Shown here piece by piece: positions 14,557 through 31,222 of a stretch of DNA of 46,950 nt. Under the pieces are notes generated by a model, which searched no databases, was not told where the DNA came from, and was given only the letters and a program-made list of their open reading frames with translations. The first letter of the stretch is position 1. Each line of letters opens with the position of its first letter. The position numbers and the translations under genes were made by a program. The stretch is from a virus, in IMG/VR virus record IMGVR_UViG_3300042090_001801, positions 1 to 46,950 of that record, one strand, 5' to 3'.

Positions 14557-14559
14557 ACG

Positions 14560-14709: not shown

Positions 14710-14797
14710 TGGCGGAAGTGGTAGGATTCGAACCCACGGAGCCTTTCGACCCTTCCGCTTTCAAGGCGGATGCAATAGACCACTCTGCCACACTTCC
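14710..14797 (-). tRNA. tRNA-Ser(TGA)
   Basis: Acceptor GGAAGTG/CACTTCC, anticodon stem TCCGC/GCGGA with loop CTTGAAA (TGA), long variable arm, T loop TTCGAAT, encoded CCA. Confidence 0.92.
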
Positions 14798-14803
14798 AAA
14801 TTC

Positions 14804-14875: not shown

Positions 14876-14879
14876 AAAT

Positions 14880-15166
14880 CTGGTGGGGTCGGTAGGTTGT
14901 CAAGCCTACATCTTTCATCCACGTCGGCGTTACTGTGCGACACTCCTCGGAGGCTGGCCAAGCACTCGTCAATAGAGCGGGGAATTTCACCCGAGGGCTA
15001 CGGCTGCGTGACCATAGTGTGTTACCGCCCAACCAACTTGCACCGCCGCTGCAATCTACGCACGGTGTTCGTTGTGCACTACGCCAATCGTGACCTACTT
15101 GAGCCTCGAGCATTGCATCCCGAGCACCTTCTCCCCCGCAACAAGGGCATTATCAGTCACGACCCC
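14880..15166 (-). ncRNA. Candidate 287-nt RNA with tRNA-like acceptor ends
   Basis: The 5' end GGGGTCG (15160-15166) pairs perfectly with CGACCCC near the 3' end, followed by A and CCA, exactly as a tRNA acceptor. Just inside lies a T-arm-like stem GTAGG/CCTAC with an eight-base loop CTTGACAA. The roughly 240 bases between hold no cloverleaf and no tag frame that I recognise. It may be an intron-bearing tRNA, a tmRNA-like RNA or a new family. A promoter at 15340-15368 reads into it. Confidence 0.5.
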
Positions 15167-15170
15167 AAAA

Positions 15171-15314
15171 CTTTCAAAGAGCATTGTTCAACAAAAACGG
15201 TATCGGAGATTTGCCCCCTGCGCCAGCATGGCATAGCCGAATCGAACGGCCGGGTGTTTTCACCAAGAAAGTTAGATAACCGACATCCAACGGTTGAGCA
15301 ATGTTCTTTGAAAG
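15171..15314 (-). repeat. 22-bp inverted repeat enclosing a structured segment
   Basis: Arms at 15171-15192 and 15293-15314 are complementary over 22 bases with two mismatches. The enclosed 100 bases contain a tRNA-like T arm (GGCCG-TTCGATT-CGGCT). It looks like a long processing stem in the leader of the 287-nt RNA. Confidence 0.6.
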
Positions 15315-15323
15315 CTGTGCATC

Positions 15324-15330
15324 TATTTAG
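15324..15330 (-). promoter_or_regulatory. Late-promoter-like motif CTAAATA
   Basis: A one-base variant of ATAAATA, located just downstream of the transglycosylase stop and reading toward the 287-nt RNA. Confidence 0.3.
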
Positions 15331-15339
15331 TGAAGTCTC

Positions 15340-15368
15340 ATTCTAATTGTCCGAGACTGGTTTGTAAA
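15340..15368 (-). promoter_or_regulatory. Sigma70-like promoter (TTTACA-17-TAGAAT)
   Basis: The -35 TTTACA is at 15363-15368 and the -10 TAGAAT at 15340-15345. It overlaps the last codons and TAG stop of the transglycosylase gene and should transcribe the structured RNA segment and tRNAs downstream. Confidence 0.65.
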
Positions 15369-16401
15369 CTTCAGGAGTTTCCTCAGGACTGGGAACCTCC
15401 ACGGTGCTGGCAACCATCTGGTCGTGCACCTCCTTCACCTTCGCTCCGAGGATGAAAATCGACATCACGTAGTTGTCGCTCGGGTTGTAGTGGCGGATGG
15501 TGAAGTAATTCGGGAGCTTCTTGAACACCCGCGCCTTAGGTCCAGGGAGTGACCAGGACACGAAGGTCTTCTTGCCGTTCCGCGCCTTCGTTTCCTCGGC
15601 GATGGAACCATCTCGCTGCCAGCCCGCATCCACCAGGAAGTGCGCCGCTGAAGCGATCGCGTCTGCCTTGCTCTGGATGATGTCCGGCTTTCCACAGCCA
15701 TCAAAGTCGATGCCTTGATCTTGAACGTGGCTCGGCATAAACTGCGGGATGCCGATGGCGCCGGCGACCGATCCCTTGAGGGTGTCGATGTCCCAACCCA
15801 TCGTGCGGGTGACGAGGAAGAGCTGTTCAAGCTCATTCTTGAAGTAGTCGACGCGGTGGTTTCCATAGAAGCTTAGCGTCGTAAGCGCCTCGAGAGCTGT
15901 GTGCCGCCCGAGGAACTGCCCGAAGGAGGTCTCGATGCCGATGAGACCTACAACTACTTCAGGCTGGATCCCGTACTGCTCGTGGATCTTGTTGAGCGTG
16001 GCGTCATTCTCGATCCAGAACTTTACGCCGTCGTTGACTCGCATCTGCGCGAGCAGCTTGAGCGCGTTGATCTCGTCTTGAGTCATCGCACCCTTCTTGC
16101 TCTTCTTTTTCCGCGGGCGGTAGAAGTCAAGTACGTCTTGCGCCGGCTGGATGAACGTGAGCCGATCGAGAATGTCTGCCTTGTCGAACCCATAGTCAAC
16201 GGACATGTGGGTAGCGAAGCGCTCCATCTGCGTCATTACCGCCTTAGGAACCTTGCGGTGCGCGGTCACCACGATGGGAGCCAGCGTTTGTTCTTGAGCT
16301 GCGAGAGGCGGCTCTTGCGCGTGGGCGGCGAAGCTAAGCGCGAAGTAGGTGATGGCGCAGCAGAGGATAGTCCACGCCAGGCAACGGATAGTTGTCATCA
16401 T
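15343..16401 (-). CDS. MltB-like lytic murein transglycosylase with TonB-box-like N terminus
   Basis: A signal sequence (about residues 1-28, ending SFAAHAQ) is followed by LAPIVVTAHRK, which resembles a TonB box. The rest matches MltB/SltB enzymes: catalytic Glu in GIETSFGQFLGRHTALEAL and GAIGIPQFMPSHV. These enzymes cleave peptidoglycan glycan strands with 1,6-anhydro product formation. A TonB-box-like sequence is unusual here; the phage's own receptor at 21576 has DPIVITSSR at a similar place. The first ATG overlaps the upstream gene's stop; a second ATG follows at once. Confidence 0.93.
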   Translation of the reverse strand: MMTTIRCLAWTILCCAITYFALSFAAHAQEPPLAAQEQTLAPIVVTAHRKVPKAVMTQMERFATHMSVDYGFDKADILDRLTFIQPAQDVLDFYRPRKKKSKKGAMTQDEINALKLLAQMRVNDGVKFWIENDATLNKIHEQYGIQPEVVVGLIGIETSFGQFLGRHTALEALTTLSFYGNHRVDYFKNELEQLFLVTRTMGWDIDTLKGSVAGAIGIPQFMPSHVQDQGIDFDGCGKPDIIQSKADAIASAAHFLVDAGWQRDGSIAEETKARNGKKTFVSWSLPGPKARVFKKLPNYFTIRHYNPSDNYVMSIFILGAKVKEVHDQMVASTVEVPSPEETPEVYKPVSDN

Positions 16402-16679
16402 GTTCCCTTGTTGTCGCGGTTTCTACCGATGTGGTAGCCATCGCAATGTAAGCACTTGTAGTTGGAAAACCAAGTGCCGCGCTTCTTCGTCATCGCCAGC
16501 GCGGACTTTTCCGCCGTCGCCTTTGTGTTGTACATCACCTTGGGCTTTCCCGTACCCGCGTTCACGTGCGAGTTGATGTGAAACAGTCCCCACGCGTTCC
16601 TCGTCACTAAGAAGTTCCGGAAGAACCGCTTCAACGGAAGTTGATCGAGGAACACAAGGTAGATGTTTCGCAGCTTCAT
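16398..16679 (-). CDS. Hypothetical protein, 93 aa, with C-x2-C motif
   Basis: Not recognised. MKLRNIYLVFLDQLPLKRFF is followed by a basic segment and KCLHCDGYHIGRN, a C-x2-C-x3-H arrangement that could bind zinc. The start is eight bases after the CCA of the next tRNA upstream, with GAGA before the ATG. The stop overlaps the transglycosylase start. Confidence 0.75.
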   Translation of the reverse strand: MKLRNIYLVFLDQLPLKRFFRNFLVTRNAWGLFHINSHVNAGTGKPKVMYNTKATAEKSALAMTKKRGTWFSNYKCLHCDGYHIGRNRDNKGT

Positions 16680-16687
16680 ATTTTCTC

Positions 16688-16763
16688 TGGTCTGGGTACC
16701 TGGATTTGAACCAGGGCTTCCTGGCTCCGGACCAGGACGACTACCAGGCTATCATATACCCAG
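16688..16763 (-). tRNA. tRNA-Pro-like, anticodon CGG if counted normally
   Basis: Acceptor CTGGGTA/TACCCAG (C1-G72, A73 as in proline tRNAs), D stem TGAT/GTCG, anticodon stem CCTGG/CCAGG, T arm CCTGG-TTCAAAT-CCAGG, encoded CCA. The loop TCCGGAG has C instead of the universal T33. Counted normally the anticodon is CGG (Pro); CCG (Arg) would need a shifted loop. Confidence 0.7.
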
Positions 16764-16779
16764 ATGGTCAGGTTGTAAA
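16751..16779 (-). promoter_or_regulatory. Sigma70-like promoter (TTTACA-17-TATGAT)
   Basis: The -35 TTTACA is at 16774-16779 and the -10 TATGAT at 16751-16756, overlapping the 5' end of the Pro-like tRNA. The overlap makes it less certain. Confidence 0.35.
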
Positions 16780-16780
16780 C

Positions 16781-16871
16781 TGGTGGGGATACTCGGATTC
16801 GAACCGAGACAGGTGCCGCAGCCCACTCCACGTTCTCACCGTGGCGACTTTACCAGTTTGTCCATATCCCC
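16781..16871 (-). tRNA. tRNA-Leu(GAG)
   Basis: Acceptor GGGGATA/TATCCCC, anticodon stem CCACG/CGTGG with loop GTGAGAA (GAG), long variable arm, T arm CTCGG-TTCGAAT-CCGAG, encoded CCA. Confidence 0.9.
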
Positions 16872-16877
16872 AAATTT

Positions 16878-16954
16878 TGGTGGAACATGTGGGAGTCGAA
16901 CCCACGGACCATACCCCTCCAGTGGGGGCTATGCACCGACGCATAAGATGTCCC
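16878..16954 (-). tRNA. Anomalous tRNA, possibly Gln(CTG)
   Basis: Acceptor GGGACAT/ATGTTCC, D stem TATG/CATA, T arm GTGGG-TTCGACT-CCCAC, discriminator A and CCA are sound. The anticodon arm is best drawn GCCCC-CACTGGA-GGGGT, with A at position 33 and anticodon CTG; a six-base loop ACTGGA is the alternative. Neither is a normal loop. Confidence 0.6.
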
Positions 16955-16959
16955 ATGTT

Positions 16960-17048
16960 TGGTGGGCCTACTCGGATTCGAACCGAGAATACGCTTACGC
17001 GGCTCCTCCTTCTGAGGGAGGCGACTATACCTATTTGTCCATAGGCCC
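16960..17048 (-). tRNA. tRNA-Leu(CAG)
   Basis: Acceptor GGGCCTA/TAGGCCC, anticodon stem CCTCC/GGAGG with loop CTCAGAA (CAG), long variable arm, T arm CTCGG-TTCGAAT-CCGAG, encoded CCA. Confidence 0.92.
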
Positions 17049-17075
17049 ATGATAATGATGTCAAACAAAAGCGAG

Positions 17076-17156
17076 GTTGGAGAGTGGGACTTGAACCCAC
17101 AAGCCTTTCGGCGTCGATTGATTAGATCGATGTGTTTACATTTCACGATAACCAAC
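17076..17156 (-). pseudogene. Degenerate class II tRNA (Leu-like)
   Basis: It has T arm GTGGG-TTCAAGT-CCCAC, a variable hairpin GCCGAAAGGC and an anticodon arm TCGAT-CTAATCA-ATCGA (AAT by count). The acceptor halves GTTGGTT/CTCCAAC mismatch at two positions, the D arm lacks the GG motif and no CCA is encoded. Confidence 0.5.
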
Positions 17157-17176
17157 GTTCAACGGTTTGACAATTT

Positions 17177-17262
17177 TGGTGCCAGAGGGTGGAGTCAAAC
17201 CACCGACAACCTTCGACGCCCGTGGGCTCCGGTCTGCTTTATACGAGTTAAGCTACTCTGAC
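17177..17262 (-). tRNA. Anomalous tRNA, anticodon unclear
   Basis: Acceptor GTCAGAG/CTCTGGC, D stem GCTT/AAGC, T arm GGTGG-TTTGACT-CCACC, discriminator A and CCA are intact. The 31 bases between D and T arms do not give a normal anticodon arm; the best is a CCG/CGG stem around GAGCCCA. Confidence 0.5.
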
Positions 17263-17267
17263 AATTT

Positions 17268-17345
17268 TGGTGCCCCAAGTCGGATTCGGACCGACACTTA
17301 CCCATCTTTTGAGGATGGTGCGTTTACCACTTTCGCCATTGGGGC
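17268..17345 (-). tRNA. tRNA-Leu(CAA) with short variable arm
   Basis: Acceptor GCCCCAA/TTGGGGC, Leu-type D arm, anticodon stem CCATC/GATGG with loop CTCAAAA (CAA), encoded CCA. The variable region is only about six bases rather than a long arm, and the T loop is TCCGAAT, with C in place of T55. Confidence 0.82.
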
Positions 17346-17355
17346 AAATTCTTTT

Positions 17356-17432
17356 TGGTGCCCGATGAGAGGAATCGAACCCTCGACCCCTCGCTTACAA
17401 GGCGAGAGCTCTTCCAACTGAGCTACTTCTCC
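17356..17432 (-). tRNA. tRNA-Thr(TGT)-like with unpaired acceptor
   Basis: D stem GCTC/GAGC, anticodon stem CTCGC/GCGAG with loop CTTGTAA (TGT) and encoded CCA are good, but the 5' end GGAGAAG cannot pair with the 3' end ATCGGGC. It may be a chimera or pseudogene; a better Thr(TGT) lies at 17556. Confidence 0.55.
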
Positions 17433-17440
17433 ACGTAAAG

Positions 17441-17542
17441 CGTATTGTCAGGAGTAGAGGATTCGAACCTCTGAGATCCCTTCGGGCCTCCCGCTTCCAA
17501 AACGGGCGCTCTGACCAGACTGAGCTAACTCCTGACGATACG
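17441..17542. repeat. 15-bp inverted repeat around a tRNA-like gene
   Basis: Arms 17441-17455 and 17528-17542 are complementary with one mismatch and include the acceptor stem of the tRNA at 17448, extending it by several pairs on both sides. Confidence 0.6.
17448..17534 (-). tRNA. Pro(TGG)-like tRNA with long variable arm, no CCA
   Basis: Acceptor CAGGAGT/ACTCCTG (C1-G72), D stem GCTC/GAGC, anticodon stem CCCGT/GCGGG with loop TTTGGAA (TGG), T arm AGAGG-TTCGAAT-CCTCT. The 17-base variable region is of class II size, unusual for proline, and CCA is not encoded. Confidence 0.65.
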
Positions 17543-17555
17543 CTCTACAAAACTT

Positions 17556-17629
17556 TGGTGCTCCTCCCCGGAATCGAACCGAAAACTGCTACTTACAAGG
17601 AAGCTGTTATGCCATTTAACTAGAGGAGC
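17556..17629 (-). tRNA. tRNA-Thr(TGT)
   Basis: Acceptor GCTCCTC/GAGGAGC, anticodon stem GCTTC/GTAGC with one T-T mismatch and loop CTTGTAA (TGT), T loop TTCGATT, encoded CCA. Confidence 0.85.
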
Positions 17630-17634
17630 AAACT

Positions 17635-17712
17635 TGGTGCGCGTGGAAGGACTCGGACCTTCACTTTCCCCACTTTTAAGGCGGGAGCGTTTGCCTGTTT
17701 CGCCACACGCGC
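17635..17712 (-). tRNA. tRNA-Leu(TAA) with short variable arm
   Basis: Acceptor GCGCGTG/CACGCGC, Leu-type D arm, anticodon stem CCCGC/GTGGG with loop CTTAAAA (TAA), encoded CCA. Like the Leu(CAA) tRNA it has a short variable region and a TCCGAGT T loop. Confidence 0.83.
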
Positions 17713-17719
17713 AAATCCT

Positions 17720-17815
17720 TGGTGGTAGGTGAGGGAGATCGAACCCTCCCGTTGCAGCCCATCTGGCCGCTCTCCCGGGTTTATAAGGCCCAGCCGCACA
17801 CCCGTGCTACCTACC
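17720..17815 (-). tRNA. Unusual class II tRNA, SelC-like, anticodon TAT by count
   Basis: Acceptor GGTAGGT/ACCTACC with A73 and CCA, D stem GCAC-GGGT-GTGC with a four-base loop, stem CTGGG/CCCGG around a nine-base loop containing TTATAA, a very long variable arm and an eight-base T loop. Small D loop, long variable arm and the GCGGCTGG...GCGGCC order resemble bacterial tRNA-Sec, but the anticodon is not TCA. The stop codon of the gene at 17807 lies in its 5' end. Confidence 0.6.
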
Positions 17816-18070
17816 GTCTTTGAATATCGAATCAAGCCACCAGTGCGGGAAAGATCCATCCTCGTAGAGCTCCTTCTTGAAGAGGCAGCCCTTCCGGATA
17901 TCTTCCTTCCACATGGTGACGTGGAGGTTAAGCTGTTGCTTGCCAACGGAAAATCCGTTGTTGTGGGAGATGGGTAAACCGAACGTCTCATGGTTGTAGA
18001 ACTCCACGAGGGCGTCATCGCTGAAGTCGAGGTCCCAATGCCGCCCAAAATAGCGGAACATCTCAGACAT
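17807..18070 (-). CDS. Hypothetical protein, 87 aa
   Basis: Not recognised. MSEMFRYFGRHWDLDFSDDA is followed by FYNHETFGLPISHNNG and PHWWLDSIFKDGR. ATG 18068-18070 has AAGAGA upstream; an in-frame GTG at 18115 would add 15 residues that include a basic KRSVNGLSGRYKR stretch. A separate 13-codon frame with a strong AGGAGG site starts at about 18143. The TAG stop lies in the acceptor of the next tRNA. Confidence 0.6.
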   Translation of the reverse strand: MSEMFRYFGRHWDLDFSDDALVEFYNHETFGLPISHNNGFSVGKQQLNLHVTMWKEDIRKGCLFKKELYEDGSFPHWWLDSIFKDGR

Positions 18071-18119
18071 TCTCTTGTAGCGACCGCTCAATCCATTTAC
18101 CGAGCGCTTGGGCACTCCT

Positions 18120-18255
18120 GTGCGTTTAGCGATGTCATAGCATCCTCCTGAATTGGGACGGGCAGTTTGAAGGATGCCCAGCCTATATCGAACTGGAGCC
18201 GCTGGTTTCGGTTAGGAACCTCGCTCACAAGGCGCCTCGTGAGTTCAGCCCAGCG
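18120..18255. other. Structured non-coding segment
   Basis: On the minus strand GTCGCTGG pairs with CCAGCGGC, enclosing a hairpin CTCAC/GTGAG with AGGCGCCT; a TTCGAT element follows. It precedes the strong AGGAGG site of a 13-codon frame (MTSLNAQECPSAR), so a leader regulatory role is possible. Confidence 0.4.
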
Positions 18256-18263
18256 ACATTGTT

Positions 18264-18335
18264 TGGTGGACCGCCGGGGAGTTGAACCCCGCGGGAGTGC
18301 ATTGCAAGTGCTCTCTGTACCCCGGTACGCAGCCC
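18264..18335 (-). tRNA. tRNA-Ala(TGC), second copy, with compact D arm
   Basis: Acceptor GGGCTGC/GCGGTCC, T arm CGGGG-TTCAACT-CCCCG, loop CTTGCAA (TGC) in a stem with one A-A mismatch, discriminator A and encoded CCA. The D arm GTAC-CGGG-GTAC has only a four-base loop and leaves almost no linker. Confidence 0.7.
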
Positions 18336-18336
18336 A

Positions 18337-18762
18337 TTAAATCTTTGAAGTGATAAGCTTGATCGACGCGGTGTTGCGCTCGACTTGCTCCTTGTACGCC
18401 GCAATTGTCTCTTCCAGCCCCTTCACTACTCCAGTGATCTGCTCGAGGTGGCTGAAGCTGTCATTTCCGTCGGCGCCAAGCTCAGTCATCGACTCATTCA
18501 TCAAGATGCTTTCGATCATGGCGATAGCTGGTTCGCTGCCCTTTTGATCCTTAAGCATTGCAATGGCGTCAAGGTAGTGCTGCTGGTTTGCCTCGCGCTC
18601 ATCAAGATCCGCTTGAAGCTTCTTCTGGATCATCTTCTTTTCATCGAGCTGGCTTTGCAGCGCCGAAATTTTGTGCGCGTATTGATTGTTGGCGTGCTGC
18701 AGTGACTTAAGCGTGTAAAGCAGAACTTCTGCCGCGTTTTCAAACGCGTTGTTGTTATCCAT
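18337..18762 (-). CDS. Coiled-coil protein, 141 aa
   Basis: A strong AGGAGACACC site precedes ATG 18760-18762. Long heptad-rich segments (residues about 15-75 and 105-141, for example HKISALQSQLDEKKMIQKKL) indicate a parallel coiled coil. No enzyme motif is seen. A CTAAATA motif lies 45 bases upstream. Confidence 0.8.
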   Translation of the reverse strand: MDNNNAFENAAEVLLYTLKSLQHANNQYAHKISALQSQLDEKKMIQKKLQADLDEREANQQHYLDAIAMLKDQKGSEPAIAMIESILMNESMTELGADGNDSFSHLEQITGVVKGLEETIAAYKEQVERNTASIKLITSKI

Positions 18763-18806
18763 GGTGTCTCCTTGATGTGACGCGTCAAAAGTAACGCGCT
18801 GATCGA

Positions 18807-18813
18807 TATTTAG
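18807..18813 (-). promoter_or_regulatory. Late-promoter-like motif CTAAATA
   Basis: A one-base variant of ATAAATA, located 45 bases upstream of the coiled-coil gene. Confidence 0.35.
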
Positions 18814-18828
18814 GAAACACTGTCAACC

Positions 18829-18913
18829 TGGTGCGGACGAGAGGACTCGAACCTCCAAGCCTTTCGGCGTCACGACCTCAACGTGGTGCGGTTACCAATT
18901 TCGCCACGTCCGC
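18829..18913 (-). tRNA. tRNA-Leu(GAG), second copy
   Basis: Acceptor GCGGACG/CGTCCGC, anticodon stem CCACG/CGTGA (one mismatch) with loop TTGAGGT (GAG), variable arm GCCGAAAGGC, T loop TTCGAGT, encoded CCA. Confidence 0.87.
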
Positions 18914-18916
18914 ATG

Positions 18917-18986
18917 AGCGGCCACGGGGATTCGAACCCCGTCCAGCAGCTTGGAAGGCTGCGTCCTATCCCAGTAGATTAGCCGC
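18917..18986 (-). tRNA. tRNA-Gly(TCC)
   Basis: Acceptor GCGGCTA/TGGCCGC, anticodon stem GCAGC/GCTGC with loop CTTCCAA (TCC), T arm ACGGGG-TTCGAAT-CCCCGT. CCA is not encoded; the gene is three bases from the preceding tRNA. Confidence 0.85.
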
Positions 18987-19020
18987 GTGTAAGGTTGCAA
19001 ACAAAGAGGTCGACACGGGG

Positions 19021-19707
19021 TTATTTTTCCGATAACCGTGTCTGGGCGGTTTGCAAATTTCTTCCTCTCGAGTATCCTCGCAAGAGGTACTCGTAGAGCT
19101 GATCTTTTTCTATCTTGATGGGTTTCTTCCCATCAGTTACCCAGCACGTTCCGAACTGGGAATTCTTTTCACCTTGCTGATGACCACGTTCTGCGAACGT
19201 AGCGACCCTTTTCTTTGACTTGGCAGCCGCCTTGGTCATTATCCTTTGTCGCTTTGCATAAGCCTCAGGATTTTCAAGAACATTTTTCAATATCGCTTCG
19301 CTTTGCGTGTGTCGAAGCGCTGCGTCAAATTCAGCTGATGCCTTTCTTTTTTCAGATAGGCTCTCACCACCTTTACTTGCTCCGGCTTTGGAACATTTGA
19401 GCTGGTGCTCGGCGTCCTTGAACTTTCCACCACCCTCACCACCGTTCTTTAGGTTTAGACAAAGTGGATCTGCCAAAAGCTCTTCATTGACCAGTTCTGC
19501 TTCGCGCAACTTCAGCGCTTCAACAGTGGGTAGTTGCTCCAAGATTTCCTTGTTGAAGCTTTCCCTGCCGTATTTTCGGACTTCTGCTTTTATGCGCTTG
19601 CCACTACCGAGATACCCATCATTCTCGTTGAATGTGGAGTGCATCCCAATGTAGAAGCGGTTATTCAACAAGTTGGTGACGCGATAGATGAGGTGAAGTT
19701 GTTCCAT
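19021..19707 (-). CDS. GIY-YIG homing endonuclease, second copy
   Basis: The 228-aa product has the GIY-YIG domain (LIYRVTNLLNNRFYIGMHS, GSGK) and shares the C-terminal domain NSQFGTCWVTDG-PIKI with the protein at 13939. The two are clearly related. An ATAAATA motif sits five bases before the ATG, so the transcript would be nearly leaderless. It lies between tRNA-Gly and tRNA-Tyr. Confidence 0.92.
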   Translation of the reverse strand: MEQLHLIYRVTNLLNNRFYIGMHSTFNENDGYLGSGKRIKAEVRKYGRESFNKEILEQLPTVEALKLREAELVNEELLADPLCLNLKNGGEGGGKFKDAEHQLKCSKAGASKGGESLSEKRKASAEFDAALRHTQSEAILKNVLENPEAYAKRQRIMTKAAAKSKKRVATFAERGHQQGEKNSQFGTCWVTDGKKPIKIEKDQLYEYLLRGYSRGRNLQTAQTRLSEK

Positions 19708-19711
19708 CCTC

Positions 19712-19718
19712 TATTTAT
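19712..19718 (-). promoter_or_regulatory. T4-like late promoter motif ATAAATA
   Basis: The minus strand reads CGCGATAAATAGAGG, immediately before the second GIY-YIG gene; CGCGATAAATA also occurs before the 307-aa gene. Confidence 0.45.
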
Positions 19719-19733
19719 CGCGTGACAACCTGG

Positions 19734-19821
19734 TGGTGGGCACGGTAGGATTCGAACCTACTAAGGCGCAAGGCCGACGCGTTTACAGCGCGCTGAAGCT
19801 CTCCAACTCCCCCGCGTACCC
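19734..19821 (-). tRNA. tRNA-Tyr(GTA)
   Basis: Acceptor GGGTACG/CGTGCCC, anticodon stem GCGCG/CGCGT with loop CTGTAAA (GTA), long variable arm, T arm GTAGG-TTCGAAT-CCTAC, discriminator A and encoded CCA. Confidence 0.92.
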
Positions 19822-19828
19822 GAATTTC

Positions 19829-19896
19829 CATTTCAAAGCTCACTCGACTTCACATTACGACGCTTGGAAGGCGCCCTTTGAATGAGCTTTGAGATG
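19829..19896. repeat. 14-bp inverted repeat between tRNA-Tyr and tRNA-Val
   Basis: Arms 19829-19842 and 19883-19896 pair over 14 bases with one mismatch. The right arm overlaps the CCA of tRNA-Val, suggesting a processing stem. Confidence 0.55.
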
Positions 19897-19969
19897 GTAC
19901 GTCCTGTAGGAGTCGAACCTACCGCCTTCGCCTTGTAAGGGCGTTGCTCTACCGATGAGCTGAGGACGT
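19895..19969 (-). tRNA. tRNA-Val(TAC)
   Basis: Acceptor ACGTCCT/AGGACGT, D stem GCTC/GAGC, loop CTTACAA (TAC), T arm GTAGG-TTCGACT-CCTAC, discriminator A and encoded CCA. One A-A pair at the base of the anticodon stem. Confidence 0.9.
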
Positions 19970-21518: not shown

Positions 21519-21547
21519 ATTATATCCTGTCATTGACCAGAAGTAAA
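21519..21547 (-). promoter_or_regulatory. Sigma70-like promoter (TTTACT-17-TATAAT)
   Basis: The -35 TTTACT is at 21542-21547 and a consensus -10 TATAAT at 21519-21524. The start codon of the PP-loop-like gene is five bases downstream. Confidence 0.75.
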
Positions 21548-21575: not shown

Positions 21576-23774
21576 CTAGAAGCGATAGACCGTTCTGACT
21601 CCGACTGTTCTTGGTCGAGCGAAGGCCACTTCATCTCCGGGTTGTGAACCAAGAACATCGGGAAGGATCATCGTCACTTGGGAAGTGTTCAGCAGGTTCC
21701 TGGCGAAGAGTCCTATTTCCCAGCTGTTTTGTGTCAGGGTTGCCGCAAGGTTCACGTTTGAGTAGGAAGGAAGGCTTCGAAACTCAGGGTCTGACGGGTT
21801 AAAGCGGGTTCCGCTAGAGCCGTGATACTGGTACTCCGCGGTGTAGCGCATCTTGCCTAAGTGGTAATCGGCGTTGAGGCTGCCGAGGTAGTGGGGAACG
21901 TAAGGGGTCTGCTCTCCACTTTGCGCACCGATGTTTGGGATAGGGCCATTTGAGACAGCGTGGGTGTACGAACCATTCGCGCTGACGGTCAGGGCGTGAG
22001 TAACCTTGTAGGCGGCCTCAAGCTCGTAGCCGGTGCTCTGCACTTGACCTGCATTTTCGGTAAAGGCGTAGGAACAAATGGGAAGGTAGTGCTCAGTCTG
22101 TACGTTGCTCCACTTTATCAGGAAAGCGGTCGCGTTGAAGTGGATGCGATCCTCGGCGAAGGAAGACTTTTCACCAAGCGAGTAGCTCCACAGGCTGTCG
22201 GGACCGTAGTTGACGGGAGCACCATTTGGAAAGCCAGAGCTTACAAGATCGTTGTGACAGAGCGGAGGCGGACCGTTAGGAACGGGTTGGTTTACACCAC
22301 CGTAGCGGAAGCCCTTCGCGGCCTCAGCGAAGATCATCGTGGTGTCACTTAGCTCATAGCGTACATTCAGCTTAGGATCAACGCCATTCGCATTTGCTGA
22401 TTGCGCAAGGGTTGAGGGAGCGCCGTTTACGTCACCTCCCATCCCAGCAAAGTAGACACCGAAGGTCTGATGCCAATCGAAGTAGCGAGCGCCGCCCGTA
22501 ACGCGGAGACGATTGGTGATGTCCCACGTAGTTTCGCCGAAGAGACCAAAGTCGTGCTCCCAGATGTCCTCGTTCCCAGAGAAGATGCTGTTAGGACGGA
22601 AAGCACCGAGCTGAACCGAATTGACCCCCTCAATGCTATCAAAACCCGGTGAGTTATCGTCTTGGTAGTTATGACGCACGAGGTGGTTAAAGAAGCTTCC
22701 CAAGGTCCACTTGATCGCTCGATCTTGCATTGACACAAATCTGATTTCCTGAGAGAACTGCGTCACCGCGTTTTGGTTCGCGTAGGTCGCGGGAGATGGG
22801 TTGGGCATCGACGGGTAGAAAGCTGACGTGAAGTACTGCCCGCTGTCGTTGAAGCCGGTAGCGCGGTTTACCAGTGACGTTGATGAGATGAAGCGACCTA
22901 CACCCGAGAGGTACTCACCGGTGAAGTTGTAGATTCTCATATCGTCGTTGATGGGAGTGGGCGTCAAGCTGGCAAACTGATTCTTGGGAAGTCCCGAGAA
23001 GGTGTAGTTGGCGGCACCGGTGGAAAGCTTTTCCAGCAGGGCGGAAGCGTCGAGGGTAAGCTCGTGCGTTGGCTGAAAGCGAAGCGCAAAGCGGGCTTGG
23101 TCTGGTCTGTCCCAGTTGGAGTGCGTCTGGCCATCCTGGGCGTTGTTGATCCAGCCGGAATCACGGCCTGTATAGCCCGTGACAAGCATCGCCGCCTTGC
23201 TTCCCAAAGGAACATTCAGATCAGTCCGAACCCCGTAGTTTAGCCCTCCGCCCTGGGTATCCGAGACTACAACTTCCTCAGAACCGAATACGCTGACAAG
23301 GTCTGGCTTGCGCGTGATGTAGCGAACCGTGCCGCCCATCGAACTCGCGCCGTAGAGCGTTCCTTGAGGTCCACGAAGCACTTCGACCCGTTCAATGTCG
23401 AGCACGTTGAGGTTAGGATTGAATCCCTGCATCGCCATTGGAGTGTCGTCGATGTAGACGCCAACGAGAGGCCGATCCTCGAGGTTGTTAAGGATGTCCG
23501 CGGCTCCGGTGGTGACACCGCGAATATCGATCTTTCCGAGACCTGGACCACCTTGCTCGAGGCTAAGCGATGGAACGTAGGGCGCGATGTCTTGCAGAGA
23601 CGTACCACCAGCCCGGTCTATGGTTTCCGGACTTACCACAGTCACCGCAGTCGGCGCTAGCTGGATGTTTTGATCTGCTTGACGCGATGAAGTGATAACT
23701 ATCGGGTCAAGCGTATCATCGGCGTGGGCTGCTCCCAGAAGAAGCAGGGCTATTAGAGCGTATCGATTATCCAT
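21576..23774 (-). CDS. TonB-dependent outer-membrane receptor
   Basis: Signal peptide (residues 1-18), TonB box DPIVITSSR (about 23-31), a plug domain with RGPQGTLYG and GGTVRYITRKP, then a beta barrel ending in RTVYRF with the typical C-terminal aromatic. At 732 aa it has full length and no frame break. Such receptors bring scarce ligands across the outer membrane using TonB energy, and also serve phages as receptors. It overlaps nadR by 22 bases and is the last gene of the NAD operon, so a pyridine ligand is likely (inference); another ligand or a superinfection role is possible. Confidence 0.97.
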   Translation of the reverse strand: MDNRYALIALLLLGAAHADDTLDPIVITSSRQADQNIQLAPTAVTVVSPETIDRAGGTSLQDIAPYVPSLSLEQGGPGLGKIDIRGVTTGAADILNNLEDRPLVGVYIDDTPMAMQGFNPNLNVLDIERVEVLRGPQGTLYGASSMGGTVRYITRKPDLVSVFGSEEVVVSDTQGGGLNYGVRTDLNVPLGSKAAMLVTGYTGRDSGWINNAQDGQTHSNWDRPDQARFALRFQPTHELTLDASALLEKLSTGAANYTFSGLPKNQFASLTPTPINDDMRIYNFTGEYLSGVGRFISSTSLVNRATGFNDSGQYFTSAFYPSMPNPSPATYANQNAVTQFSQEIRFVSMQDRAIKWTLGSFFNHLVRHNYQDDNSPGFDSIEGVNSVQLGAFRPNSIFSGNEDIWEHDFGLFGETTWDITNRLRVTGGARYFDWHQTFGVYFAGMGGDVNGAPSTLAQSANANGVDPKLNVRYELSDTTMIFAEAAKGFRYGGVNQPVPNGPPPLCHNDLVSSGFPNGAPVNYGPDSLWSYSLGEKSSFAEDRIHFNATAFLIKWSNVQTEHYLPICSYAFTENAGQVQSTGYELEAAYKVTHALTVSANGSYTHAVSNGPIPNIGAQSGEQTPYVPHYLGSLNADYHLGKMRYTAEYQYHGSSGTRFNPSDPEFRSLPSYSNVNLAATLTQNSWEIGLFARNLLNTSQVTMILPDVLGSQPGDEVAFARPRTVGVRTVYRF

Positions 23775-24751
23775 TCCGTCACCTTGTCAATGCGTTCAAC
23801 GAGACTTCCTTTTGCTTCAAAAACCGGCCCTTTAAACTCCTTCAGCTTGTCACGGTACCAGGCATCCTGCTCAGCGCGGAAAGCGGCATCTCGACGGCTA
23901 CCATCATCCTCAAAGGGAATGTCGGGGGCGCAGAGAATAACCGCATCATAGTGAGTTATCGCTGAAAGTAAAACTAACTGCGGCAGCTTCTTTCCGAACA
24001 TCCACTCCGAGTATCCCAGCGTCGTAAGAGGCGAGGTATCGCAGAAGAGATAGCGGTTGGAGGTGAGGGCTGCTTTTTTCTCCATTGCCACCTGCGCCCA
24101 GCCAATCTCTACCAGGTCCTTTTCGTCGAGCACTCCGCCCTTCTCCTCATGCAGTTGGCGACCATACTCGTGAACCCAATTGGTGTTAAAGACCCCTGCG
24201 AGGATGCGGGCCAGAGTCGTTTTTCCACTGCTCTCACCACCAAGGAAAACGATCTTCTTGATGAAGGAAGCCGCCACGACGTCAGACATGTAGTTGCGGT
24301 AGCGGTCTGGGTCGCTGCGGATCATCGTAGCGCTGATGGGAACGCGCGCTCGCTCGATGTCGATTATCTCAGCTTCCACCGGGTAGCCGAGAAGTCGTGA
24401 AAGGGTTTCAGCGCACGGCTTGCCCCAGGGCTCACTGCAAAAGATGACGTCTGGTTTGCACGAGAGAACCGCCAGCACCCACGCCAGGTATTCCTGCTGC
24501 TCGATGTCGCTTGCATCGTTCTTTGGCATCTCCCTCCAAGGAAAAAAGTTGGGATCCAAAACATGACAGTCGACACCCGGAAAGAGCTTAGTGATCCACT
24601 CTTGACGAGCAAGAGCGTGGCACCCTGCAAACTCTGGGTTGGAATAGCTGATGATGGTGAGATGATCACAGCGCTTCAGCGACTCCTCGATGAGGAACTC
24701 ATGGCCCTTGTGAAGGGGTGAGAACTTTCCAACAACTAAACCTTTGCGCAT
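23753..24751 (-). CDS. nadR: NadR-like NMN adenylyltransferase / ribosylnicotinamide kinase
   Basis: The N-terminal nucleotidyltransferase domain has H-x-G-H in KFSPLHKGHEF (about 9-19) and ISATMIR (about 147). The C-terminal kinase domain has Walker A GGESSGKTT (about 177-185). Together they would phosphorylate nicotinamide riboside and adenylate NMN to NAD+. The repressor helix-turn-helix of enterobacterial NadR is absent. ATG 24749-24751 overlaps the end of pnuC; the longer upstream frame is rejected because it starts inside pnuC. Confidence 0.95.
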   Translation of the reverse strand: MRKGLVVGKFSPLHKGHEFLIEESLKRCDHLTIISYSNPEFAGCHALARQEWITKLFPGVDCHVLDPNFFPWREMPKNDASDIEQQEYLAWVLAVLSCKPDVIFCSEPWGKPCAETLSRLLGYPVEAEIIDIERARVPISATMIRSDPDRYRNYMSDVVAASFIKKIVFLGGESSGKTTLARILAGVFNTNWVHEYGRQLHEEKGGVLDEKDLVEIGWAQVAMEKKAALTSNRYLFCDTSPLTTLGYSEWMFGKKLPQLVLLSAITHYDAVILCAPDIPFEDDGSRRDAAFRAEQDAWYRDKLKEFKGPVFEAKGSLVERIDKVTEWIIDTL

Positions 24752-25284
24752 AGCGACCTCCAGCGGTACCAACCGTACCAAGCGTTAAACCAGTAAGCAG
24801 CGTAGAGAAACGCCGTGATGTTCATCCCTCGAGAGATGTAGAGCCCAACTGAAAGCGAGTTAACCGCTATCCAGAAGGGCCAACTTTCTACCTTGCGCTG
24901 CATCAGCAAGCACTGCGCGATCACGCTCAGGATGAGAACCGACGCGTCCACGAAGGGCATGAAGTCATCGGTCAGCTTTAACAGCAGCCACCCATACCCA
25001 GCAGTTACCGCGAGGGCGACCAGCGCTATGACGCCTATCGTCGGGAAGGAAGACTTCGTTACTGGCCTATCTCCATCTGTCCCATGCTTCCACTGCCACC
25101 ACCCAACCAAGCTTGACGCGACGAAGAAAACCTGAAGGGTCGCGTCGGCGTAAAGCTGCTTCTCGTAGAAGAGCACCATGAACAGCAGGCACCCAACTAT
25201 CCCTGTCGTCCATGTGTGGACGTGGTTGCGGACCGCCAACCAGATGGAGAGGGTGGTGACTGCGTTCGCGGCGAGCTCAAGCAC
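24736..25284 (-). CDS. pnuC: PnuC-like nicotinamide riboside transporter
   Basis: A 182-aa protein with about seven membrane segments and PnuC landmarks: LYADATLQVFFVASSLVGWW and a C-terminal AAYWFNAWYGWYRW. PnuC moves nicotinamide riboside across the inner membrane by facilitated diffusion, trapped by a kinase such as NadR. It starts with GTG 25282-25284, three bases after the previous gene, and overlaps nadR by 16 bases. Confidence 0.95.
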   Translation of the reverse strand: MLELAANAVTTLSIWLAVRNHVHTWTTGIVGCLLFMVLFYEKQLYADATLQVFFVASSLVGWWQWKHGTDGDRPVTKSSFPTIGVIALVALAVTAGYGWLLLKLTDDFMPFVDASVLILSVIAQCLLMQRKVESWPFWIAVNSLSVGLYISRGMNITAFLYAAYWFNAWYGWYRWRSLCAKV

Positions 25285-25287
25285 GAC

Positions 25288-25614
25288 TTACTTTCGCCAG
25301 AACTTGAACGTAGGTTCGTAGTTCTCATTGTAGGCGGGTTTGTCGTGGTAGACCTTCCAGCCCACCTTTTCAAACAGCGCCTCAAAGTCCAGCCAGTGCT
25401 TGTCGAAGAAGTCATCGCGCTTGTGCTCAATGCCAGCGATGGTTAACCGCATGGACGCCCGCTCCATCACTTCCGTCTGCGTCAGCGTGATATAGCCGCC
25501 ATTTCGCCACCTTGACGCTAGCAGCTCGTTTACCGCCTCGATCACTTGATCGGGGATGACCGCGGGCATCGCCTCAAGGGCTTCATCGGGTGAAAAAGGT
25601 TTTACTGCCATCAT
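25288..25614 (-). CDS. Conserved phage-type hypothetical protein, 108 aa
   Basis: It begins MMAVKPFSPDEALEAMPAVI, followed by PDQVIEAVNELLA, and has a C-terminal WLDFEALFEKVGWKVYHDKP. The pattern is like small conserved proteins of T4-type phages, of unknown function. AGGAG lies before two adjacent ATGs; the second (25609-25611) has better spacing. Its place between Nampt and pnuC suggests a link to this operon or simple insertion. Confidence 0.85.
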   Translation of the reverse strand: MMAVKPFSPDEALEAMPAVIPDQVIEAVNELLASRWRNGGYITLTQTEVMERASMRLTIAGIEHKRDDFFDKHWLDFEALFEKVGWKVYHDKPAYNENYEPTFKFWRK

Positions 25615-25621
25615 CGTCTCC

Positions 25622-27007
25622 TTAGGACATCGCGCGGGCGCGAATTTCAGCGAGGGTGGTGCGGTTGAAGAGCTTTCCGTTTTCGTACACGGTGACCATC
25701 ACCTCTTCCCACTCAGAGTCCAGCGGAGCTCCGGTTTCTTCGAAGGTCATGTACTCACCGGTCATCTTGCTGCGAACCAGGTGTAGGCGACCAGCCTTGG
25801 ACTTCTTGCCCGGATCGGTGATCGGATCCTTGAACACCGAAACCCACTTGCTACCGATGCGAATGGCGGTGGTCTTCTGCGCGAACTTGTACGTGTCGCG
25901 GTTGACCTTCTGCAGGAGGGCACCACCAGAGCCGAAGACGATGTTCGACGCGCTGTAGCCCATCTCAGTAACCTTCTCGAGGATCTTGACCATCGCCTCG
26001 AGGTCCACGCCGTCACCCTGGATGATGCCGACATTGTTGATCACCTTGTAGCCCTTGGTGTTCACCTTGTGTCCGAAGGCCATGTCCTGCATCTTCAGCA
26101 GGCGCGGGATGACTTCCAGTGGATCCCCACTGTCGGGACGGAAGACGATGCGGGCGCCAGAGGCGATGATCTTGTCCTTGAGCTCGCAGAGGGTCTGCGC
26201 CTCACGGTAGACGTCGTAGCCGTCGATCACTATCGATACGATGGCGCCCGGCTTTGCAGCCTTCTCGATGACGGTCTCGAGGTACTCGCGTTGGCGGGTC
26301 GGACCGTAGGAGCACTGGATGCTGTGCTCGGTGGCGATGACAGAAAACGCCGCCATATCCTCATCGTAGTAGTGGTTCGCGGCGCGGATTCCTTCGACAG
26401 TATCCGAACCCATGAAGTGCACCAGGTGAGCGAAGCCGCCAATCTGCGCGGACTCATGCGAGGAAACGCCGCGACCGCCGAAGTCGTGAAGCGTGAACGG
26501 CACCAAGCTCTCGTCATCCGAGCTTTCACGTGCAAAGCGGCGAATGGCTCTCCACGCCTTGTGATCGTTTGAAGCGATCGTCGTCGGATACCAGATGCCG
26601 CGCTGGATGACCGTTTCGATCCAGCTAACCAGCCACGCGAGCTCAGGGTCGGTGCTTTCCACCGAGTAGAGGATGTTGCCGCTAGGAACGGGCGTTCCTT
26701 CCGGAACCACCTTGATCTTCAGAGGCAGCAGCCCCTTGTGGGTGTCCAGCACCCGGAGCCAGCCGGCCTTGTCAAAGGGCTCACCGTGGGCGGTGAGGAA
26801 GCGCTCTGCTTCCATGATATTGTCGAGCGTGATCGGCGTGGTGAAGTATTCCTCCAGCAGCATCTGCATGCCGACAGGAACGATGATCTCGCCCTTGATG
26901 CGGGCTTCGCCGTAGGCGAACATTCCCGTCATTCCGGCGGTGTAGAGGGGACCATGGCTGTACTTGTAGCTGTCAGCCATGAGGATTAGGTTTCTGCGTA
27001 GCATCAT
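25622..27007 (-). CDS. nadV: Nicotinamide phosphoribosyltransferase (Nampt/NadV)
   Basis: A full-length 461-aa Nampt: NLILMADSYKYSH near the start, DFGGRGVSSHESAQIGGFAH (about 172), VIATEHS (about 215), FRPDSGDP and FGSGGALLQKVNRDT. The enzyme makes NMN from nicotinamide and PRPP. AGGAG lies six bases before ATG 27005-27007. With the adenylyltransferase upstream it forms the two-step route called NARP2, shown in other phages to rebuild NAD+ after NAD-depleting defences. Confidence 0.97.
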   Translation of the reverse strand: MMLRRNLILMADSYKYSHGPLYTAGMTGMFAYGEARIKGEIIVPVGMQMLLEEYFTTPITLDNIMEAERFLTAHGEPFDKAGWLRVLDTHKGLLPLKIKVVPEGTPVPSGNILYSVESTDPELAWLVSWIETVIQRGIWYPTTIASNDHKAWRAIRRFARESSDDESLVPFTLHDFGGRGVSSHESAQIGGFAHLVHFMGSDTVEGIRAANHYYDEDMAAFSVIATEHSIQCSYGPTRQREYLETVIEKAAKPGAIVSIVIDGYDVYREAQTLCELKDKIIASGARIVFRPDSGDPLEVIPRLLKMQDMAFGHKVNTKGYKVINNVGIIQGDGVDLEAMVKILEKVTEMGYSASNIVFGSGGALLQKVNRDTYKFAQKTTAIRIGSKWVSVFKDPITDPGKKSKAGRLHLVRSKMTGEYMTFEETGAPLDSEWEEVMVTVYENGKLFNRTTLAEIRARAMS

Positions 27008-27041
27008 GATAAGCTCCTTATCATAGGATTCCCTGTGTCGT

Positions 27042-28124
27042 TCACAGGGCGGTTAACCGTCCATACATCGTGGACAGCATGGGGTGGTGATCCTCGAACC
27101 ACATCTCGGTTCGGCGGAGCGCCTCATTGATGGGCACCCACATCACCTTCTTGACCTCTCCCTTTTGCGGCTTGGTGCGGGGAAGAGGTTTACTATCGTC
27201 AAGCTTGAAGAGGTAGCACACGGTAAGGGTTCGACCACGAAGGCTGCGATCTGGGTGGTCGAAGATTTCCTTGCTCTTTATCGAACCGTACAGCTGCGCC
27301 TTTGACAGCTCGATGCGGGTTTCCTCGAGCAGCTCACGGACGGCACCATCGATGAGGCGCTCACCTTGCTCAAGAAAGCCACCAGGGAGAGCCCACAGAC
27401 CCTTACCCGGGAAGTTGTCGCGAACGTTGACGAGCACGTGACCGGACTGGATCACGCACGCGTCGACGGTGTTGAAGGTGGGCGCGTATGGCGCAGCTTG
27501 CCAGTCCTTCTTGTACTTCTCGATGTACTCGTACTCCTTGCACAGCGGTATGTACGCGTCCTCGAAGGACTGGAAGTCGATGAGAAATTCCAGCGTTGTG
27601 GGAGGAACCATATCACGCATCGAGTCTTGCGGCTCTTTTGGACTGAACAGCAGATCGCGAACCTTGGTGGCGCTGAGGTCCAGATCGTGGTCGTTGTTCG
27701 TCACCAGATCTGGGGTGAAGAGATCGCCAAAGGCGTGCAGGTACCAAGTCGACTTGTCGCGATCTGCACCGGTGAGGTGCACCTTCGGATTCAGACCCAA
27801 CGTGTCGACCATGTCGCTCTTGGCATGGTCGACGGCGTCTTGGACCTCGCGCATCCAGGCGTGATCGTTGTAGGGGTGGTCGTGAAGGGGTTTCACGACG
27901 AGATGATCGTACTCGGGAAGGGTCTGAGCGTACGCGTGGATCATCTTGCGTCGCTCTTCGAAGGAGAAGGGATTCTTGGTGGTCCGCGCCTGGCCAGAAG
28001 AGCCGACGAGCACGAGAACAGCCTTGGACGTTCGGAGCGCTCTGCTAAGAACTGCCGCGTGGCCGTTGTGGAAAGGTGAGAACCTGCCGATAAAGACCGT
28101 GAGGTCTTTGAGATTGCTTGCCAT
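27042..28124 (-). CDS. Bifunctional NMN adenylyltransferase / Nudix hydrolase
   Basis: The N-terminal domain has FSPFHNGH (residues 15-22) and LSATKVR for nucleotidyl transfer; the C-terminal domain has the Nudix box GGFLEQGERLIDGAVRELLE-ET (about 240-262). The domain order matches NadM-Nudix proteins of bacteria and phage KVP40. It would make NAD+ from NMN and hydrolyse ADP-ribose-type compounds. ATG 28122-28124 has GGAG six bases upstream. It is the first gene after the promoter at 28179. Confidence 0.96.
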   Translation of the reverse strand: MASNLKDLTVFIGRFSPFHNGHAAVLSRALRTSKAVLVLVGSSGQARTTKNPFSFEERRKMIHAYAQTLPEYDHLVVKPLHDHPYNDHAWMREVQDAVDHAKSDMVDTLGLNPKVHLTGADRDKSTWYLHAFGDLFTPDLVTNNDHDLDLSATKVRDLLFSPKEPQDSMRDMVPPTTLEFLIDFQSFEDAYIPLCKEYEYIEKYKKDWQAAPYAPTFNTVDACVIQSGHVLVNVRDNFPGKGLWALPGGFLEQGERLIDGAVRELLEETRIELSKAQLYGSIKSKEIFDHPDRSLRGRTLTVCYLFKLDDSKPLPRTKPQKGEVKKVMWVPINEALRRTEMWFEDHHPMLSTMYGRLTAL

Positions 28125-28178: not shown

Positions 28179-28207
28179 ATTGTACCACGGTGTCCGCGGT
28201 ACGTAAA
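28179..28207 (-). promoter_or_regulatory. Sigma70-like promoter of the NAD operon (TTTACG-17-TACAAT)
   Basis: The -35 TTTACG is at 28202-28207 and the -10 TACAAT at 28179-28184. It precedes six co-directional genes to 21576; the spacer holds a GTACCGCGG/CCGTGGTAC inverted repeat that could be an operator. Confidence 0.7.
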
Positions 28208-28618: not shown

Positions 28619-28867
28619 TCAGTGCCTGCATGTACTCGCCCAGCATACCAGGGCTATCGAGAAAAACTCCGCCTTGCGGCTCCCAGCCCTTTTTACCTCC
28701 GCTACTGGCGCATCCTGCTCTGCACTCGCGGCAGCACGGTCGGCAAGGATGGTGGCGCGGGCGTAGGCTTCGGAGTAGTCCTCGACGATGCTTCGGCGGT
28801 TGTCATCTTCCGGCTGCAATGTCGCAAAAAAGTGGGGCGGCAGATTGATCGGTGCGTCTTTGGTCAT
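28619..28867 (-). CDS. Hypothetical protein, 82 aa
   Basis: Not recognised. MTKDAPINLPPHFFATLQPE, Ala-rich in the middle, Cys near the end. Its ATG overlaps the stop of the repeat protein (ATGA), and both are richer in G+C at third positions than neighbours, suggesting recent acquisition as a pair. Confidence 0.7.
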   Translation of the reverse strand: MTKDAPINLPPHFFATLQPEDDNRRSIVEDYSEAYARATILADRAAASAEQDAPVAEVKRAGSRKAEFFSIALVCWASTCRH

Positions 28868-29427
28868 GCTGCCTCCATGACGCGCTTGGGCATCGCGTCC
28901 AGCAATATCTGCGCGGCGGCATTTTCGTTTGGGGCGCTGACGACGCGCAGGAACATGACTTGTTGTGCGCCCCTGTCAGGGGCATCAGCAGCGTCCCCGG
29001 CAGCGGTCCAGGCAGCGGTTCCGGCAGCGGTCCAGGCATCGCCCCAGGCAGCGGTCCCGGCAGCGGTCCCGGCAGCGGTCCCGGCAGCGGTCCTGGCAGC
29101 GGTCCAGGCGCGCTTTAATGCGTCGCGCGTGGCCAGCCCGCTTGCATAGTCCTGCGCCACATCCAATGCCGCAATCGACCGCGCATCCGTCATCAGATGC
29201 TGAACTTGCCGAGCGCACCAGACCGCGTACAGGCGCCACACTCGGTCATAGTCCACGGATCTGCAGCACCAAAGTGCGTCATCAATGTCGTTGGATTCAA
29301 CGATGACCGCAAACGGCAGCAATTCGTCGTCCGCCTTGGTCTTCCCAAGGTGTCGCAACAGTTTTGTCCAGCCCGATTCGCACGGGCCATGAGCGCGGAT
29401 GCGGTTGAGAGTTGTGCAGCAAGTCAT
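28864..29427 (-). CDS. Ala/Trp-repeat protein, 187 aa
   Basis: The N-terminal part (DDALWCCRSVDYDRVWRLYA, then DARSIAALDVAQDYASGLAT) matches a type of small protein common in proteobacterial genomes and phages, followed by A-A-W/G-T repeats coded by a 12-bp tandem repeat. No function is known to me. AGGAG lies six bases before the ATG. Base composition differs from flanking genes, which suggests transfer. Confidence 0.85.
   Translation of the reverse strand: MTCCTTLNRIRAHGPCESGWTKLLRHLGKTKADDELLPFAVIVESNDIDDALWCCRSVDYDRVWRLYAVWCARQVQHLMTDARSIAALDVAQDYASGLATRDALKRAWTAARTAAGTAAGTAAGTAAWGDAWTAAGTAAWTAAGDAADAPDRGAQQVMFLRVVSAPNENAAAQILLDAMPKRVMEAA
28993..29109. repeat. 12-bp tandem repeat inside the Ala/Trp-repeat gene
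   Basis: About ten copies of a GGCAGCGGTCCC-type unit follow one another with small changes, all in phase with the reading frame. Copy number is likely to vary. Confidence 0.85.
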
Positions 29428-30800: not shown

Positions 30801-30831
30801 GCTGCCCTTGTAGTTGTAGTTGGCAGAAAGC

Positions 30832-30853
30832 GGGGAGAGCCGAAGCCCTCCCC
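30832..30853 (-). terminator. Hairpin at the 3' end of the tmRNA gene
   Basis: A nine-base-pair stem GGGGAGGGC/GCTCTCCCC closes a TTCG loop on the minus strand. There is only a short T-rich tail, so it could be a terminator or a processing end. Confidence 0.6.
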
Positions 30854-31187
30854 TAACCGTTCTTTGACAAGGTGGTTTAGACCTCGTGCATGGCCGGGTG
30901 TTTAGGCCGCCATTGCAAAAACGCTGTCATTTGCGTTTATGGTTTTGCTTCGCTTAGGGCGAACGCCTATCCTGTCGCGTGCCTTCGTTCACATACCCCG
31001 TCGAAACCAGGACAGGCCCATCAGAAGCACTCTCAACCATTGCCCTATCGAGGGTTTAGACAATGTCCCTGCTGCGACAAGGAGAGCACTTTTGGTGGAC
31101 CTGAGGGGAATCGAACCCCTGTCCGAAGCAGATCCAGTTAGCCCGAATATACGACAATACTTTTGGTGAGAGCGAACTCTCACGCTC
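30854..31187 (-). ncRNA. ssrA: Circularly permuted two-piece tmRNA
   Basis: On the minus strand the acceptor piece comes first: T arm AGGGG-TTCGATT-CCCCT, then CAGGTCC, A and CCA ending at 31093. After a 73-base spacer the coding piece begins at 31019 with GGGCCTG (all seven pairs with CAGGTCC) and the tmRNA signature CTGGTTTCGACGGGG. The tag frame 30902-30934 reads ANDSVFAMAA then TAA. CGAAGGCA and TGCTTCG can form helix P2. tmRNA rescues stalled ribosomes and tags the product for degradation. The outer ends are approximate; a promoter at 31194 fits. Confidence 0.92.
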
Positions 31188-31193
31188 AAGACC

Positions 31194-31222
31194 ATTCTAT
31201 CAAAAATCCCAAAACCTGTAAA
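31194..31222 (-). promoter_or_regulatory. Sigma70-like promoter of the tmRNA (TTTACA-17-TAGAAT)
   Basis: The -35 TTTACA is at 31217-31222 and the -10 TAGAAT at 31194-31199, placing a start near 31187, just before the acceptor piece. Confidence 0.7.

Follow-up and report, generated by a model that had tools for sequence, protein, structure and literature searches.

A phage NAD+ salvage operon with a TonB-dependent receptor, and a possible route of uptake across both membranes

Nampt converts nicotinamide to nicotinamide mononucleotide (NMN), from which NMN adenylyltransferase forms nicotinamide adenine dinucleotide (NAD+). PnuC imports nicotinamide riboside (NR), which NadR phosphorylates and then adenylylates. 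In the NARP2-type Vibrio phage KVP40 and the schizotequatroviruses, in which NARP2 is core (PMC12028318), the genes of Nampt and of an NMN adenylyltransferase-Nudix protein lie side by side, and KVP40-like phages also have PnuC and NadR homologues. Adjacent PnuC and NadR genes are also found in large phages of Alphaproteobacteria, namely the Caulobacter bertelyviruses (CcrSC and CcrBL9) and the jumbo phage Atu_ph07 (PMC6102473). TonB-dependent receptors (TBDRs) of the SusC-like kind are found in the marine megaphage Mar_Mega_1 and in LR745206, where they are proposed to raise nutrient uptake (PMC9723777). The window, that is, the whole stretch analysed here (IMG/VR viral fragment IMGVR_UViG_3300042090_001801; 46,950 bp), carries a putative operon of six genes (minus strand, 28124-21576), in which NAD salvage genes are followed by a TBDR gene. 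Phage NAD salvage and phage TBDRs are each already known, and an operon joining both appears to be new. With confidence little better than even, we propose that it is an NAD+ salvage operon acting at two membranes, its TBDR importing NR, NMN or NAD+ across a porin-poor outer membrane.

The gene order is NMN adenylyltransferase-Nudix, Nampt, a 108-aa protein, PnuC, a NadR-like protein and the TBDR. These six genes and their identities had been given in a preliminary description made from the letters alone, and both stand: the open reading frames (ORFs) were confirmed, and the domain families were recovered by Pfam, PHROGs and NCBIfam with agreeing matches to solved structures in the PDB. In detail, the bifunctional NMN adenylyltransferase/Nudix hydrolase (27042-28124, 360 aa) has the NUDIX and CTP_transf_like domains (PF00293 and PF01467) and matches PDB 2qjo (E 1e-64). 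The Nampt/NadV phosphoribosyltransferase (25622-27007, 461 aa) has the NAMPT_N and NAPRTase domains (PF18127 and PF04095), passes the NCBIfam cut-off of its family and is closest to the bacterial Nampt 7yqo (E 7e-130). Its neighbor is the NMN adenylyltransferase gene, an adjacency which characterizes the NARP2 type; an Adps-like gene, which together with Namat would define NARP1, is absent from the six. PnuC (24736-25284, 182 aa) exceeds both of its cut-offs (NMN_transporter PF04973, E 3e-47, 161 against 27.3 bits; TIGR01528, 80.4 against 42.45 bits) and matches PDB 4qtn.

In the NadR-like protein (23753-24751, 332 aa; phrog_3462; PDB 9x6f and 1lw7), both enzyme domains, that is, NMN adenylyltransferase and ribosylnicotinamide kinase (AAA_28, PF13521), are recognized, with the motifs GKFSPLHKGH and GGESSGKTT. 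It scores 161.6 bits against the TIGR01526 equivalog cut-off of 341, and the adenylyltransferase-Nudix protein 321 bits against 397 for NF003786. Since both lie below the NCBIfam cut-offs, their names hold at the level of the family. The 108-aa protein (25288-25614) has no significant match in Pfam, PHROGs or NCBIfam, and its homologues are present in two other viral loci, L103 (just upstream of Nampt) and L114. As judged from these sequences, the operon is an intact NAD salvage set, consisting of the NARP2-type route and the PnuC-NadR pair.

The first two genes are separated by 34 bases and the next two gaps are of 7 and 3 bases, whereas the last two junctions are overlaps of 16 and 22 bases. 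The latter, between the TBDR start (ATG at 23774) and the nadR stop (23753), had already been noted and was confirmed. For nadR itself, a start at TTG 24781 had been given; the most likely start is ATG 24751, which is closely preceded by GGAGG and from which the overlap with pnuC is counted, while the remaining gene coordinates held. The motif TTTAC-N18-TANAAT recurs in the window (18 sites, 11 exact and the rest with one mismatch, where 0.75 were expected), and 17 of the 18 sites are on the minus strand, which is the operon's coding strand. From 28207 to 21519, the only sites are those at the two operon ends. The one at 28179-28207 (minus strand, TTTACG-N17-TACAAT) resembles a sigma70 promoter with TG before the -10 element, in agreement with the single promoter described earlier, and an exact match at 21519-21547 (minus strand) marks the 3′ limit of the unit. 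No intrinsic terminator was predicted inside the unit on the coding strand. The promoter evidence supports, without proving, the co-transcription of the six genes. The motif is also useful for delimiting transcription units in the window's phage group.

The TBDR (21576-23774, minus strand, 732 aa) was described as full, and this was corroborated. Both of its domains, Plug (PF07715) and the TonB_dep_Rec barrel (PF00593), are above their cut-offs (barrel 116 against 27 bits). It starts with a signal peptide (MDNRY...AHA; 23721-23774, MDNRYALIALLLLGAAHA), followed by a TonB box assigned by pattern (LDPIVITSSR, 23682-23711) and the plug (residues 40-149, 23328-23657, E 4e-20), and ends with Phe. 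Its AlphaFold model, built with 32 sequences, has a pTM of 0.85, a mean pLDDT of 83.6 and 22 barrel strands. By sequence and model, therefore, it is predicted to be a complete TBDR. TBDRs are powered by TonB-ExbBD, and since a search of the phage records for a TonB gene found none, that of the host would be needed. The best PDB match of the model in Foldseek is the siderophore receptor FyuA (4epa, TMt 0.89), followed by many other TBDRs. The fold search was rejected as a clue to the substrate, as every top PDB match is a TBDR and their substrates differ. Among predicted viral proteins there is one full fold match, a phage SusC-like TBDR (TM 0.71), which shares only 12% identity with the window's receptor. 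The SusC-like TBDRs of Mar_Mega_1 and LR745206 are proposed for carbohydrate and have not been reported in an NAD operon.

The same arrangement was found in a second phage, the two being large tailed phages. Single-protein scans of viral contigs with the TBDR or NadR gave no match, and profile scans were needed to reveal locus L086 in IMGVR_UViG_3300005537_000001 (368,054 bp), a contig which encodes a T4-type gp23 capsid gene and a single TBDR. Local BLAST showed five shared genes, alike in order and orientation, with identities of 62% (adenylyltransferase-Nudix), 50% (Nampt), 60% (PnuC), 50% (NadR) and 55% (TBDR). In place of the 108-aa orphan there is a 67-aa ORF of no recognizable relationship. 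The first gene is preceded by a promoter-like TTTACT/TATAAC with spacing one base shorter, and the receptor has an aligned signal peptide and TonB box (LDEVVVTASR). This is the only orthologous phage receptor found, and it occupies the same operon position rather than one apart from the NAD genes. The two receptor genes differ by 0.35, 0.26 and 0.62 at the first, second and third codon positions, respectively, which is an indication of old divergence and of a phage gene under purifying selection.

Because the window is a metagenomic contig and TBDRs are abundant in bacteria, the receptor might be an assembly chimera or recently captured host DNA and not a functional phage gene, and the L086 copy is indeed frameshifted near its end. 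This is very improbable. The gene overlaps nadR, has phage promoters on both sides, resembles its neighbors in base composition and is under strong purifying selection; the gene order recurs in an independent contig with gp23, and the two receptors form a distinct phage clade (support 100). An assembly artefact was rejected on the grounds of the second phage, the composition and the selection.

The combination is rare among viruses. An alignment scan of viral contigs with the adenylyltransferase-Nudix protein gave 80 loci. The window's flanking genes recur at six of these (L100, L114, L168, L101, L103 and L107), none of which has PnuC, NadR or TBDR. All three are also absent (for TBDR, the plug) from the whole records G014 (358 kb) and, as fragments, G027 and G044, in which the flanking genes are likewise shared. 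In the phages syntenic with the window, the three genes are thus missing together; they are either all present or all absent, in small numbers and with several records being fragments. The two operon carriers are not sisters in the adenylyltransferase-Nudix tree; therefore, the set of PnuC, NadR and TBDR was gained or lost on at least two occasions. Among 45 viral records that are related or bear NAD genes, a TBDR plug was found in one, the L086 phage, and PnuC in 20. NadR and PnuC were matched in 756 and 718 phage records, respectively. KVP40 and the schizotequatroviruses differ from the window in that no close relative of its TBDR was found in the 50,697 phage records searched. In the bertelyvirus CcrSC no TBDR was found, and for Atu_ph07 none is mentioned; the bertelyvirus PnuC and NadR proteins share only 33-39% identity with those of the window. 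A search of open-access journal papers for NAD salvage and a TBDR in one phage returned nothing relevant. The earlier remark that such a receptor is unusual in an NAD operon was upheld.

Other phage TBDRs in IMG/VR contigs are distant (L191, L192, L193, L195, L196, L198, L201, L202, L204 and L210). In the tree, L191, L204, L210, L196, L201 and others are placed on separate branches, and they are mostly away from NAD genes. The records of L204 and L210 were confirmed to have gp23. Only the TBDR of L210 is near NAD genes, about 4 kb away in a contig of 111 kb, a proximity that could be due to chance. TBDR matches labelled "Acinetobacter phage MD-2021a" are 25-30% identical and bear bacterial gene names (cirA_2, btuB_1). 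In another phage, a 191-aa protein with a signal peptide and beta-barrel-like features (L089, 9209-9784) is encoded directly upstream of PnuC-NadR; it has no Pfam match and its single-sequence structure model has a pLDDT of 31. It is a lead only, perhaps to a second partner in the outer membrane for importing NR.

The clade of the two phage receptors is joined (support 100) to 20 bacterial sequences, mainly from Caulobacteraceae and Sphingomonadaceae. These relatives (L006-L036) are 37-43% identical to the phage receptor and have the same architecture, but lack linkage to NAD genes and keep two extracellular insertions which are missing in both phage receptors, where residues have also switched. 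Their neighborhood of TPR-sulfotransferase, S15 peptidase and sarcosine oxidase genes represents an uncharacterized uptake locus of Caulobacterales/Sphingomonadales. PnuC itself exceeds the cut-off in 44 of 249 genomes in the order of Phenylobacterium and in 66 of 251 in the family of Sphingomonas, usually beside NadR. A TBDR was not found in the same operon in any of 40 bacterial PnuC loci (39 of the Caulobacterales-order/Sphingomonadaceae type and one gammaproteobacterium); the single case of proximity is a convergent TBDR next to NadR (L292). On the basis of these 40 loci, re-checked by motif, the phage operon as a copy of a bacterial TBDR-PnuC operon was rejected.

Both phages possess a circularly permuted tmRNA (RF04321; window 30811-31203, minus strand; L086 3254-3658, plus strand). 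The tag peptides start with AND (ANDSVFAMAA in one phage, ANDAFFGEELRLAA in the other), which we take to fit Alphaproteobacteria, a phage tmRNA being unusual in itself. The tmRNA and the placement of the TBDR clade suggest that the hosts are probably Alphaproteobacteria of the Caulobacterales/Sphingomonadales kind. C. crescentus has no OmpF/C-type porins, Tsx or LamB, and has 67 TBDRs (PMC4659666). Since the probable hosts would lack general and nucleoside porins, as is known for Caulobacter, an outer-membrane step would be needed; as many of them also lack PnuC, a phage that draws on outside NR would need both membrane steps. We infer that NR, or a compound from which NR is formed, reaches PnuC through the TBDR.

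In the proposed mechanism, the operon would be expressed from its sigma70-like promoter and the receptor would insert in the host outer membrane. Driven by the host TonB-ExbBD, it would bring into the periplasm either NR or a pyridine nucleotide of larger size (NMN, NAD+), from which host phosphatases, if needed, would there yield NR. PnuC would take up this NR and NadR would convert it through NMN to NAD+, while in parallel Nampt and NMN adenylyltransferase would lead from nicotinamide through NMN to NAD+. Phage DNA metabolism would benefit from the high NAD+.

Several observations weigh against this proposal. Molecules as small as free nicotinamide and NR perhaps need no active transport where the host has porins, and the host assignment is no more than probable. 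The PnuC-NadR-TBDR combination is found in two phages only, and in L086 the receptor is frameshifted near the last strands, with its final 47 residues in another frame, which is either an assembly error or real. Third-position GC content (GC3) in TBDR and NadR is lower than in Nampt, yet inside the range of other window genes. The best fold match is a siderophore receptor, a match uninformative on substrate. In the flanks read, of up to 8 kb, the bacterial relatives of the TBDR have no PnuC or NadR; they adjoin TPR-sulfotransferase, S15 X-Pro peptidase, MFS transporter, sarcosine oxidase alpha, PurU, DUF3089 and Rieske oxygenase genes, which, not being NAD genes, point to other substrates. These neighbors, the FyuA match and the position of most other phage TBDRs apart from NAD genes would agree with a receptor that imports another scarce nutrient (iron chelate, N-methylated compound, peptide or cobalamin) and is merely co-transcribed with the NAD genes. 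That is an unlikely alternative, though the foremost one to weigh: the receptor directly follows nadR in both phages, its presence or absence tracks PnuC-NadR, and loops and residues retained throughout the bacterial clade have been lost or switched, respectively, in the phage receptors. Furthermore, no Rfam riboswitch, cobalamin or other, scored above gathering in the window, L086 or nine bacterial TBDR loci.

The loss of the two extracellular insertions could also suit a device for surface remodelling or competition, blocking or decoying rival phages or colicin-like toxins (superinfection exclusion) with no role in nutrition. TBDRs are common phage receptors, and the fold matches include FhuA-pb5 structures and 8a60, in which the T5-type Llp masks FhuA. 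We regard this as improbable, because conservation extends to the signal peptide, the TonB box and the plug, as expected for a working transporter, a displayed receptor is more likely to attract phages than to repel them, and the place in an NAD operon would be left unexplained.

Other features of the window lie outside the operon. There are 25 tRNAs beside the tmRNA, about 24 of them densely arrayed at 2156-19969 (minus strand) among homing-endonuclease-like ORFs (13939-14556 and 19021-19707). The tRNA at 333-408 (minus strand) has a CUA (amber) anticodon and is a possible suppressor; a similar tRNA is found in the phage contig L210 (13759-13833). The ORF at 28864-29427 (minus strand) has a low-complexity stretch of AWTAAGTAAGTAAG-type repeats near 28950-29150.

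The preliminary description had suggested import of a pyridine compound from outside and a high NAD+ level against NAD-depleting defences, a reading that is partly supported here. By analogy with the NARP pathways, high NAD+ could buffer NADase defences (PMC12774641, PMC12300627 and PMC12028318). More tentatively than the two-membrane operon itself, and at somewhat under even confidence, the TBDR may be dedicated to the active transport of a pyridine nucleoside or nucleotide (NR, NMN or NAD+), in which case the operon would be a complete route from uptake to cofactor that rebuilds NAD+ out of external sources during NAD-depleting immunity. No report was found of pyridine nucleosides or nucleotides as a substrate class of TBDRs. 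Phage NAD+ salvage is usually seen as recycling inside a doomed cell. That an outer-membrane receptor is conserved in the operon suggests that, in some phages, supplies from beyond the cell are drawn on as well. If true, the NAD+ supply of the phage would be independent of how fully a defence destroys the internal pool, and TonB-dependent transport would gain a new substrate class.

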